In this document: positions 3,880 to 7,977 of the stretch, piece by piece
Layout of the letters: each line of letters starts with the position of its first letter
How positions within the stretch are numbered: the stretch's first letter is position 1
Source of the DNA: Nitrososphaera sp.
GTDB taxonomy: Archaea > Thermoproteota > Nitrososphaeria > Nitrososphaerales > Nitrososphaeraceae
DNA: 64,000 bases
NCBI RefSeq assembly: GCF_013388945.1
Contig: NZ_JACAEH010000002.1
Coordinates: forward strand, 62,001-126,000
Direction: 5' to 3'
The notes under the pieces: model-generated
Told to the model about the DNA's origin: nothing
The model's database searches: none
The model's input: only the letters and a program-made list of their open reading frames with translations
Program-made: the position numbers and the translations under genes

Positions 3880-4659
3880 ATGAAAATGGCATTTCTGGAG
3901 ATTAAAGACTTGCACGTCAGCATAGATGGCAAGGAGATACTATCCGGCCTCAACCTGAACATTGACAAGGGCGAGGTCCACGCCATCATGGGGCCAAACG
4001 GCTCGGGCAAGAGCACGCTTGCAAACGCGGTCATGGGCCACCCGAAATACACGCTTGACTCTGGCGAGATAAGGGTCAAGGGCGAGCTCATAAACGACCT
4101 TTCAACCGATCTCAGGGCAAGGAAGGGCATATTCCTCGGGTTCCAGTACCCGACTGAAATATCCGGCGTAGGCTACTCGCATTTTCTGCGCAACGCCTAC
4201 AACCAGCTGAACAAGTCGCTTGGCGAGGAGCAGAACCGCGAGGTGTTCCTTACGGTCAGGGAGTTCCACGAGTACGTGAAAAAGAACCTGGACGCAGTGG
4301 GACTTGACCCGTCGTTTCTCGGGCGGTACCTCAACGAGGGATTCTCGGGCGGAGAGAAAAAGCGCTCCGAGGTCATGCAGATGCTAGTGCTAAAGCCAAA
4401 TATCGCGATACTTGACGAGCCCGACTCGGGTCTTGACATCGACGCGGTCAAGGCAGTGGCAGAGGCGATAAACAAGCTGATAGACACCGGCGCAGGCGTC
4501 CTTGTCATCACGCACTATGCGCGCATACTGCGCTACCTGAAAAAGCTCGACTACGTGCATGTCGTTGCCAAGGGCAAGGTGATCAAGTCCGGCGGCAAAG
4601 AGCTGTCGGAGGAGCTTGAAGCCAAGGGCTACGGCTGGCTGGGTCTCGAAGACAAGTAA
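3880..4659 (+). CDS. sufC: SufC, ATPase of the SUF iron-sulphur cluster assembly system
   Basis: The 259-residue ABC-type ATPase has Walker A GPNGSGKST (38-46), signature SGGE (156-159) and Walker B ILDE (177-180). The closing GYGWLGLED and the loop FLGFQYPTEISG are specific to SufC rather than to transporters. It energises the SufB-SufD scaffold that builds [Fe-S] clusters. SufB and SufD are not next to it in this window, so the operon is split or the gene stands alone. A TATA-like TCTAAATACC precedes it by about 25 bases; ATG 3886 is a possible alternative start. Confidence 0.92.
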   Translation: MKMAFLEIKDLHVSIDGKEILSGLNLNIDKGEVHAIMGPNGSGKSTLANAVMGHPKYTLDSGEIRVKGELINDLSTDLRARKGIFLGFQYPTEISGVGYSHFLRNAYNQLNKSLGEEQNREVFLTVREFHEYVKKNLDAVGLDPSFLGRYLNEGFSGGEKKRSEVMQMLVLKPNIAILDEPDSGLDIDAVKAVAEAINKLIDTGAGVLVITHYARILRYLKKLDYVHVVAKGKVIKSGGKELSEELEAKGYGWLGLEDK

Positions 4660-4735: not shown

Positions 4736-5422
4736 ATGTCGGAAGACAACAAGCCGCCGGCGCCTGTCTTTCTCAACTTTTCGTTTTTCAAGGTAGACCC
4801 CAAGTGGCGCTGGCTCAACGAGATGGGCAGGGAGGAGGCCGCAAAAGAGTTTGCAACCCTCGTGGAGGTCGCAAACACCAAGATGAAGGTGCGCACCTAC
4901 TCGACGCTCGGGCTGCGCTCCGATTCCGACCTGATGATATGGATGATTTCAGACAGCGTGGAAAAGATGCAGGTCATGGCGTCCAAAGTATACAGCACGG
5001 TGTTTGGCAAGTACCTTGAATCGTCGCACACCTTTCTTTCGGCAAGCAGACCGTCGGTGTATTCAAGCAAGGTGACGCCCGGATTCATGACCGATGAGCA
5101 GCCGATGAAGTATGTCGTAGTCTACCCGTTTGTAAAGACAAGGGACTGGTATCTCCTGCCGTTTGAAGAGCGCAAGCAGATGATGGAAGAGCACATCATG
5201 GTCGGAAGAAAGTTCCCGCAGGTGCGCCTCAACACCACCTACTCGTTCGGCCTGGACGACCAGGACTTTATGCTTGCTTTTGAGACTCCTGACCTTGCGG
5301 TATTCCAGAACCTCATAATGCAGCTGCGCGAGACCAAGGTCAGCAAGTATGTAGTCCGCGACACGCCGATGATACCGTGCGTGCACAAGAACATCGAGGA
5401 GATAATCAAGAGCCTGGGGTGA
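4736..5422 (+). CDS. Chlorite dismutase family protein, probable coproheme decarboxylase
   Basis: The 228-residue protein matches the ChdC/HemQ branch of the chlorite dismutase family. It has YPFVKTRDWYLLP with Y139, the position of the catalytic tyrosine of coproheme decarboxylases, and EEHIMVGR with H153, the expected proximal haem ligand. ChdC removes two propionates of coproheme with peroxide to give haem b. The DUF1802 and aldo/keto reductase genes follow at once, and a siroheme decarboxylase faces them, so a role in haem formation is likely. True chlorite dismutase activity is unlikely but cannot be excluded by sequence reading. Confidence 0.8.
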   Translation: MSEDNKPPAPVFLNFSFFKVDPKWRWLNEMGREEAAKEFATLVEVANTKMKVRTYSTLGLRSDSDLMIWMISDSVEKMQVMASKVYSTVFGKYLESSHTFLSASRPSVYSSKVTPGFMTDEQPMKYVVVYPFVKTRDWYLLPFEERKQMMEEHIMVGRKFPQVRLNTTYSFGLDDQDFMLAFETPDLAVFQNLIMQLRETKVSKYVVRDTPMIPCVHKNIEEIIKSLG

Positions 5423-5423
5423 T

Positions 5424-5972
5424 ATGGTGCAGGCGCTAAAAGAGTGGGCAGTGGTGTGCAGGGCGCTTCAAGAGGGCCGGCAGACCGTGCTCCTGCGAAA
5501 GGGCGGCATACTGGAATACCGGCAGGGCTTTGAAGTCAAGCACGACAGGTTCATGCTTTTTCCCACATACGAGCACCAGGCAAAGGAGCATCTGCAGCCA
5601 GACTATGCAGGCAGGATAGATGCCGTTTTCAAAGAGCAGCCGCCTGCAGAGTCGAACGTGCTTTCAAGCTATGCTGAAGCAAAGCGCGTGGCAGAGATAA
5701 GGGACCCTGCGGTCCTGAAGCAGCTGGAAAAGTACCACGTCTGGAGCGAAAGCTATGTTAATGCGAGGATGGCCTATAACCCCCAGAAGCCGATGAGCGT
5801 GATTCTCGTGCGCGTTTACAACCTGCAAAACCCGATAAAAATCGACACGAAAAAAGAGTGGGCCGGATGCAAGTCGTGGATTCCAATCGACGTTGAAGCG
5901 GCAGGCAGGCCCGCGCTCGACGATTCCGCGTTTTCGATGATAGAGTCTAAAGTCATGGAGGTACTGGCATGA
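5424..5972 (+). CDS. DUF1802 family protein
   Basis: The 182-residue protein opens with ALKEWAVVCRALQEGRQTVL and contains FMLFPTYEHQ, both hallmarks of DUF1802, a family of unknown function in archaea and bacteria. It starts one base after the stop of the chlorite-dismutase-family gene and its own stop overlaps the next ATG, so the three genes form one translation-coupled operon. No catalytic motif is obvious. A link to haem or redox chemistry is inferred only from its position. Confidence 0.85.
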   Translation: MVQALKEWAVVCRALQEGRQTVLLRKGGILEYRQGFEVKHDRFMLFPTYEHQAKEHLQPDYAGRIDAVFKEQPPAESNVLSSYAEAKRVAEIRDPAVLKQLEKYHVWSESYVNARMAYNPQKPMSVILVRVYNLQNPIKIDTKKEWAGCKSWIPIDVEAAGRPALDDSAFSMIESKVMEVLA

Positions 5973-6955
5973 AATACAGAAGGTTAGGCAAGAGCGACAT
6001 CAGGGTAAGCGAGATAGGATTCGGCGCCTGGACTATTGCGCTTGACTGGTGGGGCAAGAAAATAGACGACGACGAGGCGATACGGATGTTGAAAAAGGCA
6101 TACGACCTTGGCATCAACTTTTACGAGACTGCCGACATGTACGGCAAGGGCAGGAGCGAGAAGCTGATAGGCCAGGCGTTCAAGGACATGCGCAACGAAG
6201 TCGTCTACTCTACAAAGTGGGGCTACGACCTCTACAGCGCCGAGCAGATAGGGCACAACGAACTGCCGCAAAAGCACGACCCGGAATTCCTGCAGTTTGC
6301 GCTAAAGCAGAGCCTTGAAAGGCTGCAGACGGACTATATCGACGTCTACTCGCTCCACAACCCCAAGATGGACGCGATGCAAAACGACGAGCTGTTCTCC
6401 GCGCTCGACGACCTGGTGAAAAAAGGCACGATAAAGAGCCACGGGGTCGCCCTCGGGCCTGCGATAGGCTGGAAGGAAGAGGGGATATTCGCTATTGAAA
6501 ACCGCAACATAACCTGCCTTCAGACTGTCTACAACATTCTCGAGCAGGACCCCGGGCGGGACCTGATAAGGTCGGCGCAGGAAAACGACGTGGGGATAAT
6601 GGTGCGCGTGCCCGACGCGTCGGGGCTCTTGACAGGAAAGGTCAATGCAAATACCAAGTTTGACAAGAACGACCACCGCTCGTTCCGCAAGCAGGAATTC
6701 ATCAAAGAGGCGATGCAAAAGATAGACAACATGAAGCCGATAGCCGACAAGCGGGGCTGGAACATAACCCAGCTTGCGATAAAGTTCATCCTGTCGCAGC
6801 CGCAGATTTCAGTCGTGCTGCCGACCATGATAAGCGTGGAAGAGCTGGAGATGTTTGCGTCAATCTCTGACGGCAACTACCTCTCGCCTGACGAGTCTGC
6901 CAGGCTGACAGAGATGTACGAGAACAACTTTTTCGTCAAGCCCGTCGCAGGCTAG
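5969..6955 (+). CDS. Aldo/keto reductase
   Basis: The 328-residue TIM-barrel oxidoreductase shows the aldo/keto reductase tetrad: D56 and Y58 in ETADMYG, K83 in STKWGY and a histidine in YSLHNP. It would use NADPH to reduce an aldehyde or ketone; the substrate is not predictable. It is the last gene of the operon with the chlorite-dismutase-family and DUF1802 proteins and overlaps DUF1802 by 4 bases. Its stop overlaps by 4 bases the stop of the convergent siroheme decarboxylase gene. Confidence 0.92.
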   Translation: MKYRRLGKSDIRVSEIGFGAWTIALDWWGKKIDDDEAIRMLKKAYDLGINFYETADMYGKGRSEKLIGQAFKDMRNEVVYSTKWGYDLYSAEQIGHNELPQKHDPEFLQFALKQSLERLQTDYIDVYSLHNPKMDAMQNDELFSALDDLVKKGTIKSHGVALGPAIGWKEEGIFAIENRNITCLQTVYNILEQDPGRDLIRSAQENDVGIMVRVPDASGLLTGKVNANTKFDKNDHRSFRKQEFIKEAMQKIDNMKPIADKRGWNITQLAIKFILSQPQISVVLPTMISVEELEMFASISDGNYLSPDESARLTEMYENNFFVKPVAG

Positions 6956-7977
6956 ACGAAATACTTGACCCTTTCTTTCTTGAACTCGCGGGAACTGAAA
7001 AGTATCTTGTAGTCTGGGATGCCGATTGACTTGGACATCTCGACTGCCATGTTTTCCGCGGCGTCAAGCGACCTTGCGTGCACCATCGAAAACACGTTGT
7101 ACTTCCAGTCGGGGTATACAGGCCTTCGGTAGCAGTGGCTCACCTGCGGAAACGCCGCCAGCTTGAAGCCGACGTCGTCGACCCTGTCTTCGGGCACGTT
7201 CCACACGACCATGCCGTTTGCCACAAAGCCCGCGTCGCGGTGGCGCAGGATCGCCGCATACCTGCGCATGAGCCCGTTATTTTCATACTCTTTAGCCTTT
7301 GCAAACAGCTCTTCCGTGGTCACGCCGAGGTTCTGTGCCATCTCCTTGAAGGGCTCCTGAACAACAGGCAGGTCTTTTTGCAGCTCGCGCACAAACTCTT
7401 TGTCGCGCTCTGTTATCTCTAGCCTCTCGGGGTTCAGCTCCTTCACCTCGTCTGTGGGCTTGGGTTTTTCCGCGTCCTCGTTTACCATGTCTAGTTTTAC
7501 GCCAATCTTGTACATTTTCAGCGTCGGGAGCAAGCGGTATTTCACGACGCCGTCAAGCGCGGCCATCCTGTCAAGCTCGTCTTTCATGTCCGAGTCGGGC
7601 GGGACTGCAAGGGTGAACCACATGTTGTACTCGTGGTTTCGCTCGTAGTTGTGGCTGACGCCCGGGTGCTCGTTTATCTTTTCTGCCACCGCGTCAAGTT
7701 TGTCGGGCCTTACTGCAAATGCAATGAGCGCGCTCTTGTACCCAAGGCGCCTGGTATCGAAAATGGCATTTATCTGCCTGACAAGGCCCATGCTGCGCAG
7801 TCCTGCAATCCTGCGCATGGTCTCGTCCTCCGAGAGGCCGTGCTTTTTGCCAAGCTCGAGGTAGGGCCTGTCTGCAAGCGGAAATACCCACTGGATGTCG
7901 TTTAGGAGTTTCCTGTCGGTCTCGTCCAGCTGCTGGTTTGCCTGCATCTGACCTGCTGCAGATGATCGCTTTTCCAT
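6952..7977 (-). CDS. Two-domain siroheme decarboxylase (AhbA-AhbB/NirDL type fusion)
   Basis: The 341-residue protein has two Lrp-like halves (about 16-165 and 188-341), each a winged helix plus an alpha-beta domain. The segments YERNHEYNMWFTL in the first half and VSHCYRRPVYPDWKYNVFSM in the second are characteristic of siroheme decarboxylases rather than of transcription factors. AhbA/AhbB remove two acetate side chains of siroheme to give 12,18-didecarboxysiroheme, an early step of the archaeal alternative haem pathway; NirDL does the same for haem d1. Here the two subunits are fused. An ATG at 7947 is an alternative start. Confidence 0.82.
   Translation of the reverse strand: MEKRSSAAGQMQANQQLDETDRKLLNDIQWVFPLADRPYLELGKKHGLSEDETMRRIAGLRSMGLVRQINAIFDTRRLGYKSALIAFAVRPDKLDAVAEKINEHPGVSHNYERNHEYNMWFTLAVPPDSDMKDELDRMAALDGVVKYRLLPTLKMYKIGVKLDMVNEDAEKPKPTDEVKELNPERLEITERDKEFVRELQKDLPVVQEPFKEMAQNLGVTTEELFAKAKEYENNGLMRRYAAILRHRDAGFVANGMVVWNVPEDRVDDVGFKLAAFPQVSHCYRRPVYPDWKYNVFSMVHARSLDAAENMAVEMSKSIGIPDYKILFSSREFKKERVKYFV

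Follow-up and report, generated by a model that had tools for sequence, protein, structure and literature searches.

A probable haem-synthesis cluster of AOA combining an Ahb-type start with a ChdC-like finish

An Ahb-type haem route ended by the coproheme decarboxylase ChdC has already been described in haloarchaea (Haloferax; PMC5746218; PMC8305020). In Haloferax volcanii, the ChdC-ABM fusion protein PitA is the aerobic last enzyme and AhbD the anaerobic one (PMC5746218, PMC8305020). Another haloarchaeon, Haloquadratum walsbyi, is reported to lack AhbC and AhbD. How ammonia-oxidizing archaea (AOA) make haem has been an open question since their lack of AhbC and AhbD was reported in 2010 and 2014 (PMC3004389; PMC4010524); the 2010 survey of 59 archaea, by Storbeck, found hemE/hemH in Thermoplasma/Picrophilus alone (PMC3004389). 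Here, we analyzed a 64,000-nucleotide stretch of a Nitrososphaera sp. genome (hereafter, the window) that carries candidate genes for the first and last parts of such a route. The locus is best explained as a whole, with a probability of about 0.7, as an AOA-wide conserved haem-synthesis cluster with an Ahb-type start and a ChdC finish, in which all catalysis is predicted from sequence.

Gene content and conservation of the locus

Gene identities were assigned by Pfam and NCBIfam profile searches, as follows.

3880-4659, + strand: SufC Fe-S assembly ATPase, kept upstream neighbour (TIGR01978, 320 bits)
4736-5422, + strand: ChdC-like/HemQ-like coproheme decarboxylase candidate of the Cld superfamily, 228 aa (PF06778, 217 bits)
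5424-5972, + strand: DUF1802 protein, accessory (PF08819, 199 bits)
5969-6955, + strand: AKR-fold protein of a haem-linked clade, for which we coin the label hlAKR (Pfam Aldo_ket_red, 192 bits)
6952-7977, - strand: fused sirohaem decarboxylase AhbA-AhbB (AhbAB), 341 aa (NF040708, 265 bits; NF040707, 253 bits)

These matches and coordinates confirmed the original prediction of a ChdC-like gene that faces AhbA-AhbB and is coupled to DUF1802 and an AKR. One nucleotide separates the ChdC stop from the DUF1802 start, DUF1802 and the AKR gene overlap by 4 nt, and the AKR and AhbAB genes are convergent, with ends overlapping by 4 nt. The Cld-family gene was present in 28/28 genomes of the window's order and in 41/41 AOA. 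Synteny across AOA, proposed as a check on the prediction, bore it out: in all 41 AOA the AKR gene shares a strand with ChdC and is no more than 1.1 kb from it, and in 39 of them AhbAB lies no more than 2 kb from the AKR gene. As AOA of different families share this gene order, the arrangement is not due to chance. In Nitrosocaldus, HemA, HemB, HemL, HemC and SUMT come next after the cluster, and three Sulfolobaceae-type genomes (G170, G180 and G292) encode AhbAB, a Cld-family protein and the AKR without AhbC or AhbD. SufC stands beside ChdC in most AOA loci and is probably not a pathway member.

Both DUF1802 and the AKR had been put forward as helpers, and only the AKR held up, being strongly tied to the AhbAB route. 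DUF1802 is dispensable: it was found in 13/18 AOA-order genomes and in none outside the order in the genome set, an occurrence too patchy for a pathway enzyme.

Known enzymes and the missing step

The AhbA part of the fused protein spans residues 21-164 and the AhbB part residues 196-339; as both matches exceed the NCBIfam equivalog cut-off, this is a true fusion. The HXYXR motif, described together with the catalytic Arg of AhbA/AhbB (PMC4145669), was found in both halves of the window protein and of the 14 AOA homologues checked.

7639-7653, - strand: HXYXR motif of the AhbA half (HNYER, residues 109-113)
7123-7137, - strand: HXYXR motif of the AhbB half (HCYRR, residues 281-285)

For the protein encoded at 4736-5422, the best NCBIfam model was the actinobacterial HemQ/ChdC (HemQ_actino) at 170 bits, below the 235-bit equivalog cut-off, and we therefore call it ChdC-like rather than a proven equivalog. 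The closest solved structures are actinobacterial ChdCs (TM ~0.9), with 33% identity to S. coelicolor ChdC. The Tyr and His expected of a ChdC are present, together with a conserved Lys, in an alignment of archaeal homologues.

5123-5125, + strand: codon of Tyr130, the catalytic radical Tyr of ChdC, aligned with C. diphtheriae Tyr135 and invariant (32/32 archaeal homologues)
5135-5137, + strand: codon of Lys134 (31/32 archaeal homologues)
5192-5194, + strand: codon of His153, the proximal haem ligand (32/32 archaeal homologues)
5231-5233, + strand: codon of Asn166 at His+13, the distal Arg position of true Clds

Among the 32 archaeal homologues, His+13 is Asn, Val or Tyr and never Arg, and it is Asn in every aligned AOA homologue. 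True Clds carry Arg at the distal position, and HemQ proteins carry Ala or Val at the proximal Glu position (PMC4793301); the latter corresponds to Val202 by our own reading of an alignment without a directly aligned Cld chain. Because the catalytic Tyr and proximal His are kept and the distal Arg of Clds is lacking, it is probable that the "chlorite dismutases" of AOA decarboxylate coproheme.

We then searched for the remaining enzymes of known routes. No full-length AhbD match turned up in 83 genomes from the window's order, where the best hit was partial at 93 bits; the 28 of these genomes searched for AhbC gave no full-length match to it either. AhbD was likewise not found in the window's own genome, which is 99.3% complete, so its predicted absence held for this genome and for every sampled genome of the order. 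The window's genome encodes just one partial AhbC-like radical SAM protein (C31:355703-356272, 316 aa, 106.7 bits against a cut-off of 650), and a same-genus relative has nothing above ~50 bits to AhbC; we thus rejected the idea that AhbC or AhbD is hidden elsewhere in this genome. Other Nitrososphaeria gave full-length matches of 190-290 bits to the AhbC/AhbD models, many of them from proteins of the sibling TIGR04053 family. For this reason the 250-290-bit TIGR04545 matches of other lineages were not accepted as AhbD, and such matches were grouped as an AhbC/AhbD/NirJ/TIGR04053 group. Ferrochelatase (PF00762) was found in 0/17 AhbAB-bearing AOA genomes, which argues against the bacterial coproporphyrin route in AOA. 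Ferrochelatase is present in f4, f8 and f51; the relatives f4 and f8 have the coproporphyrin route, and there the gene adjoins HemE and ChdC.

The original scheme, in which the ChdC-like protein finishes the Ahb route, is thus partly upheld. In its favor are the absence of AhbD and a universal ChdC-like gene with ChdC residues in a haem cluster. However, the scheme needs AhbC, whose absence it had not foreseen; since AhbC is missing too, AhbAB and ChdC alone make an incomplete known route.

A haem-linked AKR clade

hlAKR proteins form a clade with 100/100 support that is common to AOA, Sulfolobaceae, Acidilobaceae, Aeropyrum and others. Clear members occur in 76/220 Thermoproteota genomes and AhbAB in 76/76 of these, a raw co-occurrence uncorrected for shared ancestry; AhbAB occurs without hlAKR in 16 genomes. 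We had considered that the AKR tracks ChdC, but across the 220 genomes it goes with AhbAB instead. In several lineages hlAKR lies among haem genes, with ties to HemA-D operons, and the clade is absent from f4 and f8, which use HemE/HemH/ChdC. As hlAKR also accompanies AhbC-like radical SAM proteins in some genomes, and occurs in 22 non-AOA genomes without a Cld-family gene, it cannot simply be a stand-in for AhbC. The genomic linkage marks the AKR as a conserved part of the AhbAB route. Our literature search found no paper tying a sirohaem decarboxylase to an aldo-keto reductase, and as far as that search reached, the clade, its association with AhbAB and haem genes, and its altered nicotinamide-contact residues are new.

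Alignment of 29 clade members with 18 generic AKRs revealed clade-specific residues.

6449-6457, + strand: Ala-Leu-Gly (residues 161-163) in place of the ordinary AKR Ser-Asn-Phe cofactor motif (29/29 clade members, 0/18 generic AKRs)
6605-6607, + strand: Arg213, where AKRs normally have the nicotinamide-stacking Tyr/Trp (Arg in 29/29 clade members, Tyr/Trp in 18/18 generic AKRs)
6674-6679, + strand: His236-Arg237 (29/29 clade members)

The catalytic Tyr58, Lys83 and His130 are kept in 29/29 members or nearly so, and the Asp of the tetrad is Glu in most AOA. We take the Ser, Asn and stacking Tyr/Trp of AKRs to be nicotinamide contacts. An outright loss of NAD(P)H binding was considered, and the claim was lowered because Arg also occupies the stacking position in 1ynp (AKR11C1).

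Proposed pathway and comparison with known systems

In the proposed pathway, uroporphyrinogen III would be converted to sirohaem, from which AhbAB would remove the C12 and C18 acetate carboxyls, as its family function and intact active-site motif suggest. An O2-tolerant step in place of AhbC would then give coproheme III, and the ChdC-like protein, using peroxide/O2 and Tyr130, would turn two propionates into vinyls to yield haem b. hlAKR is our best candidate for the missing sirohaem-to-coproheme step. From its gene associations, we lean toward the AKR acting somewhere between sirohaem and coproheme; that it performs or assists the acetate removal itself is possible but doubtful. Acetate removal can be formulated as loss of acetic acid without net redox change, and this would suit an AKR with Tyr/Lys/His acid groups kept and nicotinamide contacts changed. 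A more speculative and rather unlikely reading is that aerobic archaea have a hitherto overlooked enzyme of the sirohaem-to-haem route. In this reading, the AKR-fold protein would have given up ordinary nicotinamide chemistry and would use acid-base catalysis to remove, or help remove, the two didecarboxysirohaem acetates; it would stand in for AhbC, the oxygen-sensitive radical SAM enzyme, and ChdC would take the place of AhbD.

Other assignments of the AKR were weighed against this one. Isobacteriochlorins are oxygen-sensitive, and the AKR, present with and without AhbC and ChdC but always with AhbAB among clear members, might instead repair or clean up oxidised or lactonised sirohaem-type intermediates while an unlinked gene performs the AhbC step. 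This tentative alternative sits poorly with the replaced nicotinamide-contact residues, unexpected in a simple reductase, and no unlinked candidate gene was identified. Several hlAKR carriers are aerobes with haem-copper oxidases, so that the clade could act downstream of haem b, on haem A/O-type side chains, and not in making haem b itself; its absence from the HemE/HemH/ChdC-using relatives, and its tie to AhbAB and HemA-D operons, make this very improbable.

The ChdC-like protein, too, allows other readings. It could do both missing jobs, using the iron of its substrate and peroxide to form a Tyr radical that expels the two didecarboxysirohaem acetates before decarboxylating the propionates, with the AKR as an accessory. 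AhbC and AhbD are indeed missing together wherever AhbAB and ChdC stand alone (AOA; G170, G180, G292), and ChdC chemistry is known to rely on the iron within the substrate itself and on a Tyr radical (PMC10548856). Yet no such task falls to ChdC in the coproporphyrin route, the AOA ChdC is nearest to the ChdCs of f8 and f4, and we saw no special residues in it, leaving this reading unlikely. AOA "chlorite dismutase-like" genes, of unknown function, have also been discussed in relation to dark oxygen production (PMC10432482; PMC5817080), and the protein might be a real chlorite dismutase or O2-producing enzyme that lies near haem genes incidentally. The residues at the distal Arg and proximal Glu positions (the latter by our own alignment reading), best sequence and fold matches to ChdC, and 41/41 linkage to the haem-route AKR render this highly improbable. 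The preferred reading, a haem-synthesis cluster, argues that these puzzling proteins serve haem synthesis and not oxygen production, and it provides a pathway that can be tested, in which a single gap is defined and one candidate is named. Our data suggest that the genetically tractable Sulfolobus acidocaldarius has the same set.

Compared with the canonical sirohaem-dependent (Ahb) pathway of methanogens and sulfate reducers (AhbA-D), AOA share AhbAB with HXYXR in both halves but have no detected AhbC or AhbD. Actinobacterial ChdC/HemQ (C. diphtheriae 6xub/6xuc, S. coelicolor 9miq) has the same fold (TM ~0.9), catalytic Tyr, proximal His and Asn at His+13; the AOA protein differs in lacking the distal His, where a variable residue stands, and in its proposed place after AhbAB rather than after CgoX/CpfC. 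AKR11/Kv-beta type AKRs (IolS 1pyf, YhdN 1pz1, AKR11C1 1ynp) share the TIM-barrel (TM 0.72-0.78 of query) and catalytic Tyr/Lys/His with hlAKR, which is nonetheless a separate clade with Ser-Asn changed to Ala-Leu, Tyr/Trp to Arg, and an invariant His-Arg; as 1ynp also carries Arg at the stacking position, the changed residues do not by themselves mean that hlAKR has lost the cofactor. In Haloferax volcanii, the same AhbA/B genes are combined with a coproheme decarboxylase of the Cld family that completes haem under aerobic conditions, and UroD, CgoX and CpfC were not found. Haloferax volcanii differs in keeping AhbC and AhbD and in having an ABM domain joined to its ChdC; AOA have neither of these radical SAM enzymes, and their ChdC stands alone, linked to an AKR.

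A probable four-gene haem cluster in ammonia-oxidizing archaea

Coordinates and Pfam/NCBIfam profile matches bore out the four genes of the original prediction, carried by a 1.99-Mb, 99.3% complete genome (G000; the window is C22:62001-126000).

4736-5422 (+), ChdC-like protein
5424-5972 (+), DUF1802 protein
5969-6955 (+), aldo/keto-reductase-fold protein (AKR)
6952-7977 (-), fused AhbA-AhbB, sirohaem decarboxylase (AhbAB)

The first three form a compact + strand run, with a 1-nt gap and then a 4-nt overlap, and AhbAB is convergent with it, overlapping by 4 nt. Elsewhere in the window, the 2-oxoacid:ferredoxin oxidoreductase beta subunit gene (86-2158, +) is split by an intein (Intein_splicing and LAGLIDADG_3 domains), which separates CPGC from CGDFG in the thiamine-diphosphate motif.

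Ammonia-oxidizing archaea (AOA) were defined by family membership (f1, f2, f3 and f5 of the window's order). In all 41 AOA genomes sampled, AKR and ChdC share a strand and are no more than 1.1 kb apart; in 39 of them AKR is within 2 kb of the AhbA domain, and in the two exceptions AKR and AhbA are separated by ~15 and ~63 kb. G089, a genome outside this sample, keeps AhbAB and AKR together with ChdC elsewhere, and at Nitrosocaldus loci the cluster is followed by HemA, HemB, HemL, HemC and SUMT. Several f2 genomes lack DUF1802, as does every genome tested outside AOA.

Alignment of 32 archaeal ChdC homologues revealed conservation of Tyr130 (32/32), Lys134 (31/32) and His153 (32/32). At His+13, the distal position, AOA have Asn, and none of the 32 has the Arg that efficient chlorite degradation requires (PMC4793301). 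The nearest solved relatives by sequence and by fold (predicted model, pLDDT 92) are actinobacterial ChdCs; the protein scores below the NCBI equivalog cut-off. We read the "chlorite dismutase-like" genes of AOA, listed in the literature with function not known, as predicted coproheme decarboxylases. In AhbAB, each half exceeds its own NCBIfam cut-off and retains HXYXR, the motif that supplies the catalytic Arg of the characterised enzyme (PMC4145669); such fusions are already known from many archaea (PMC11237513).

An AKR clade that tracks AhbAB

A maximum-likelihood tree placed AOA AKRs in one 100/100 clade with those of family f27, which we take to be Sulfolobaceae, and of four further genomes (G010, G205, G128 and G126), and the 18 ordinary AKRs from these genomes all fell outside. 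Across 220 Thermoproteota genomes, the clade profile cleanly separated members, scoring 220 bits or more, from the rest, none above 164. Clear members occurred in 76 genomes, every one with AhbAB (76/76); 16 genomes had AhbAB without AKR and 128 had neither (Fisher p ~1e-43, or 4e-25 without AOA, both ignoring shared ancestry). Two borderline AKRs, in G123 (220 bits) and G175 (253 bits), were set aside; counting them would give two members, and no others, that lack a clear AhbAB. AKR is less closely tied to ChdC: in 22 non-AOA genomes it is present but no Cld-family gene is.

In several lineages beyond AOA, AKR again sits near haem genes. In G010, AKR and ChdC converge where a HemD-SUMT-HemC-HemL-HemB-HemA run ends; in G205, AKR adjoins AhbAB. 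Its neighbours are HemA-B-L-C-SUMT-HemD in one Acidilobaceae and one Desulfurococcales genome and HemA-B-L-C in an Aeropyrum sp., and on another Desulfurococcales contig it leads the order AKR-radical SAM-AhbAB-AhbC-like-SirC. It is unlinked to haem genes in f27, f19, f30 and f48. As far as the literature could be searched, the clade and its linkage are new.

A protein of ~180-200 aa accompanies AKR, AhbAB or HemA-D genes in Acidilobaceae, Desulfurococcales and G010. It matched no Pfam or NCBIfam profile, and its RGGH motif slightly resembles CbiX/SirB chelatase.

Protein of ~180-200 aa beside AKR, by inspected stretch of DNA
L187 8716-9324 (-)
L155 17131-17739 (-)
L259 9959-10531 (-)
L261 5415-5948 (-)

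AKR-clade-like proteins were also seen in two bacterial MAGs, an Omnitrophota and a Hydrothermota (L269 9013-9966 and L330 1229-2149), with no haem-route genes recognised nearby.

The structure predicted for the G010 member has the usual AKR barrel (pLDDT 90.5) and is best matched in fold by AKR11A and Kv-beta. All 29 clade members examined retain the catalytic Tyr, Lys and His and share an invariant His-Arg pair, and in most AOA Glu takes the place of the catalytic Asp. In 29/29, the cofactor-site Ser-Asn-Phe is replaced by Ala-Leu-Gly and the stacking Tyr/Trp by Arg, positions that contact nicotinamide in AKRs. As 1ynp also has Arg at the stacking position, what can be claimed from the residues is probable alteration of cofactor use rather than its absence.

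Missing enzymes and two haem styles

AhbD, on whose absence the original prediction was conditional, appears to be missing: in 83 genomes of the window's order, within a 120-genome class sample, its model gave only short radical-SAM matches (at most 93 bits). The AhbC model gave the same picture in 28 genomes of the order. Non-AOA families of the class gave full-length matches of 190-290 bits; many belonged to the related TIGR04053 family, and the loss is therefore phrased for the whole AhbC/AhbD/NirJ/TIGR04053 group, which AOA can safely be said to lack as judged by these profiles. In the window's genome, the best AhbC match was one protein with half of AhbC aligned (106.7 bits against a cut-off of 650). 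This fits two papers, one noting that ahbC and ahbD are missing from Nitrosopumilus maritimus, S. acidocaldarius and H. walsbyi (PMC3004389), the other that AOA genomes lack AhbC and AhbD (PMC4010524); the apparent loss of both across AOA is confirmed at a larger scale than before.

The half-aligned protein of the window's genome is a lone 316-aa radical SAM protein (G000:C31:355703-356272; L148 9577-10527), whose best but weak match is AhbC/NirJ1 and which was not found in a same-genus relative. TIGR04053 radical SAM/SPASM proteins are common in Thermoproteota (L002, L004, L008, L110, L261 1312-2493), in one case inside a haem operon between AKR and AhbAB; they match the AhbD model well and could be mistaken for AhbD.

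Ferrochelatase PF00762 was found in none of the AhbAB-bearing AOA tested, whereas it adjoins ChdC and HemE in families f4 and f8, neither of which has clear AhbAB. This points to two haem styles in one class, a bacterial coproporphyrin set and AhbAB plus ChdC. The f4/f8 run (L088, L092, L093, L094) is bacterial in style, HemA-HemC-HemD-HemB-ChdC-HemL-HemE-HemH, and suggests a coproporphyrin pathway in these relatives of AOA. Family f23 (G172, G250; L097, L157) has HemC-HemD-HemB-HemA-ChdC-HemL-HemE, with no PF00762 found in either genome, another gap in a ChdC-type route.

The proposed route and its gap

A hybrid route joining AhbAB to ChdC, as originally proposed, is supported for AOA, but AhbC, which it needs, is also missing, and the route is not new in kind. 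Three f27 genomes (G170, G180 and G292) independently match the AOA pattern. AhbAB and ChdC would act on either side of the gap, AhbAB first, and what is missing between them is the step that takes off the C2 and C7 acetates. On paper, each acetate could leave as acetic acid while a double bond forms in the ring, a change that is redox-neutral overall and makes an acid-base enzyme conceivable.

AKR is the only other conserved cluster protein that tracks AhbAB. That many carriers have AhbC-like proteins, and some lack ChdC, argues against its being a simple AhbC replacement. One explanation for AKR alongside AhbC-like proteins may be that one organism retains both an oxygen-tolerant and an oxygen-sensitive version, like Haloferax at its last haem step (PMC5746218).
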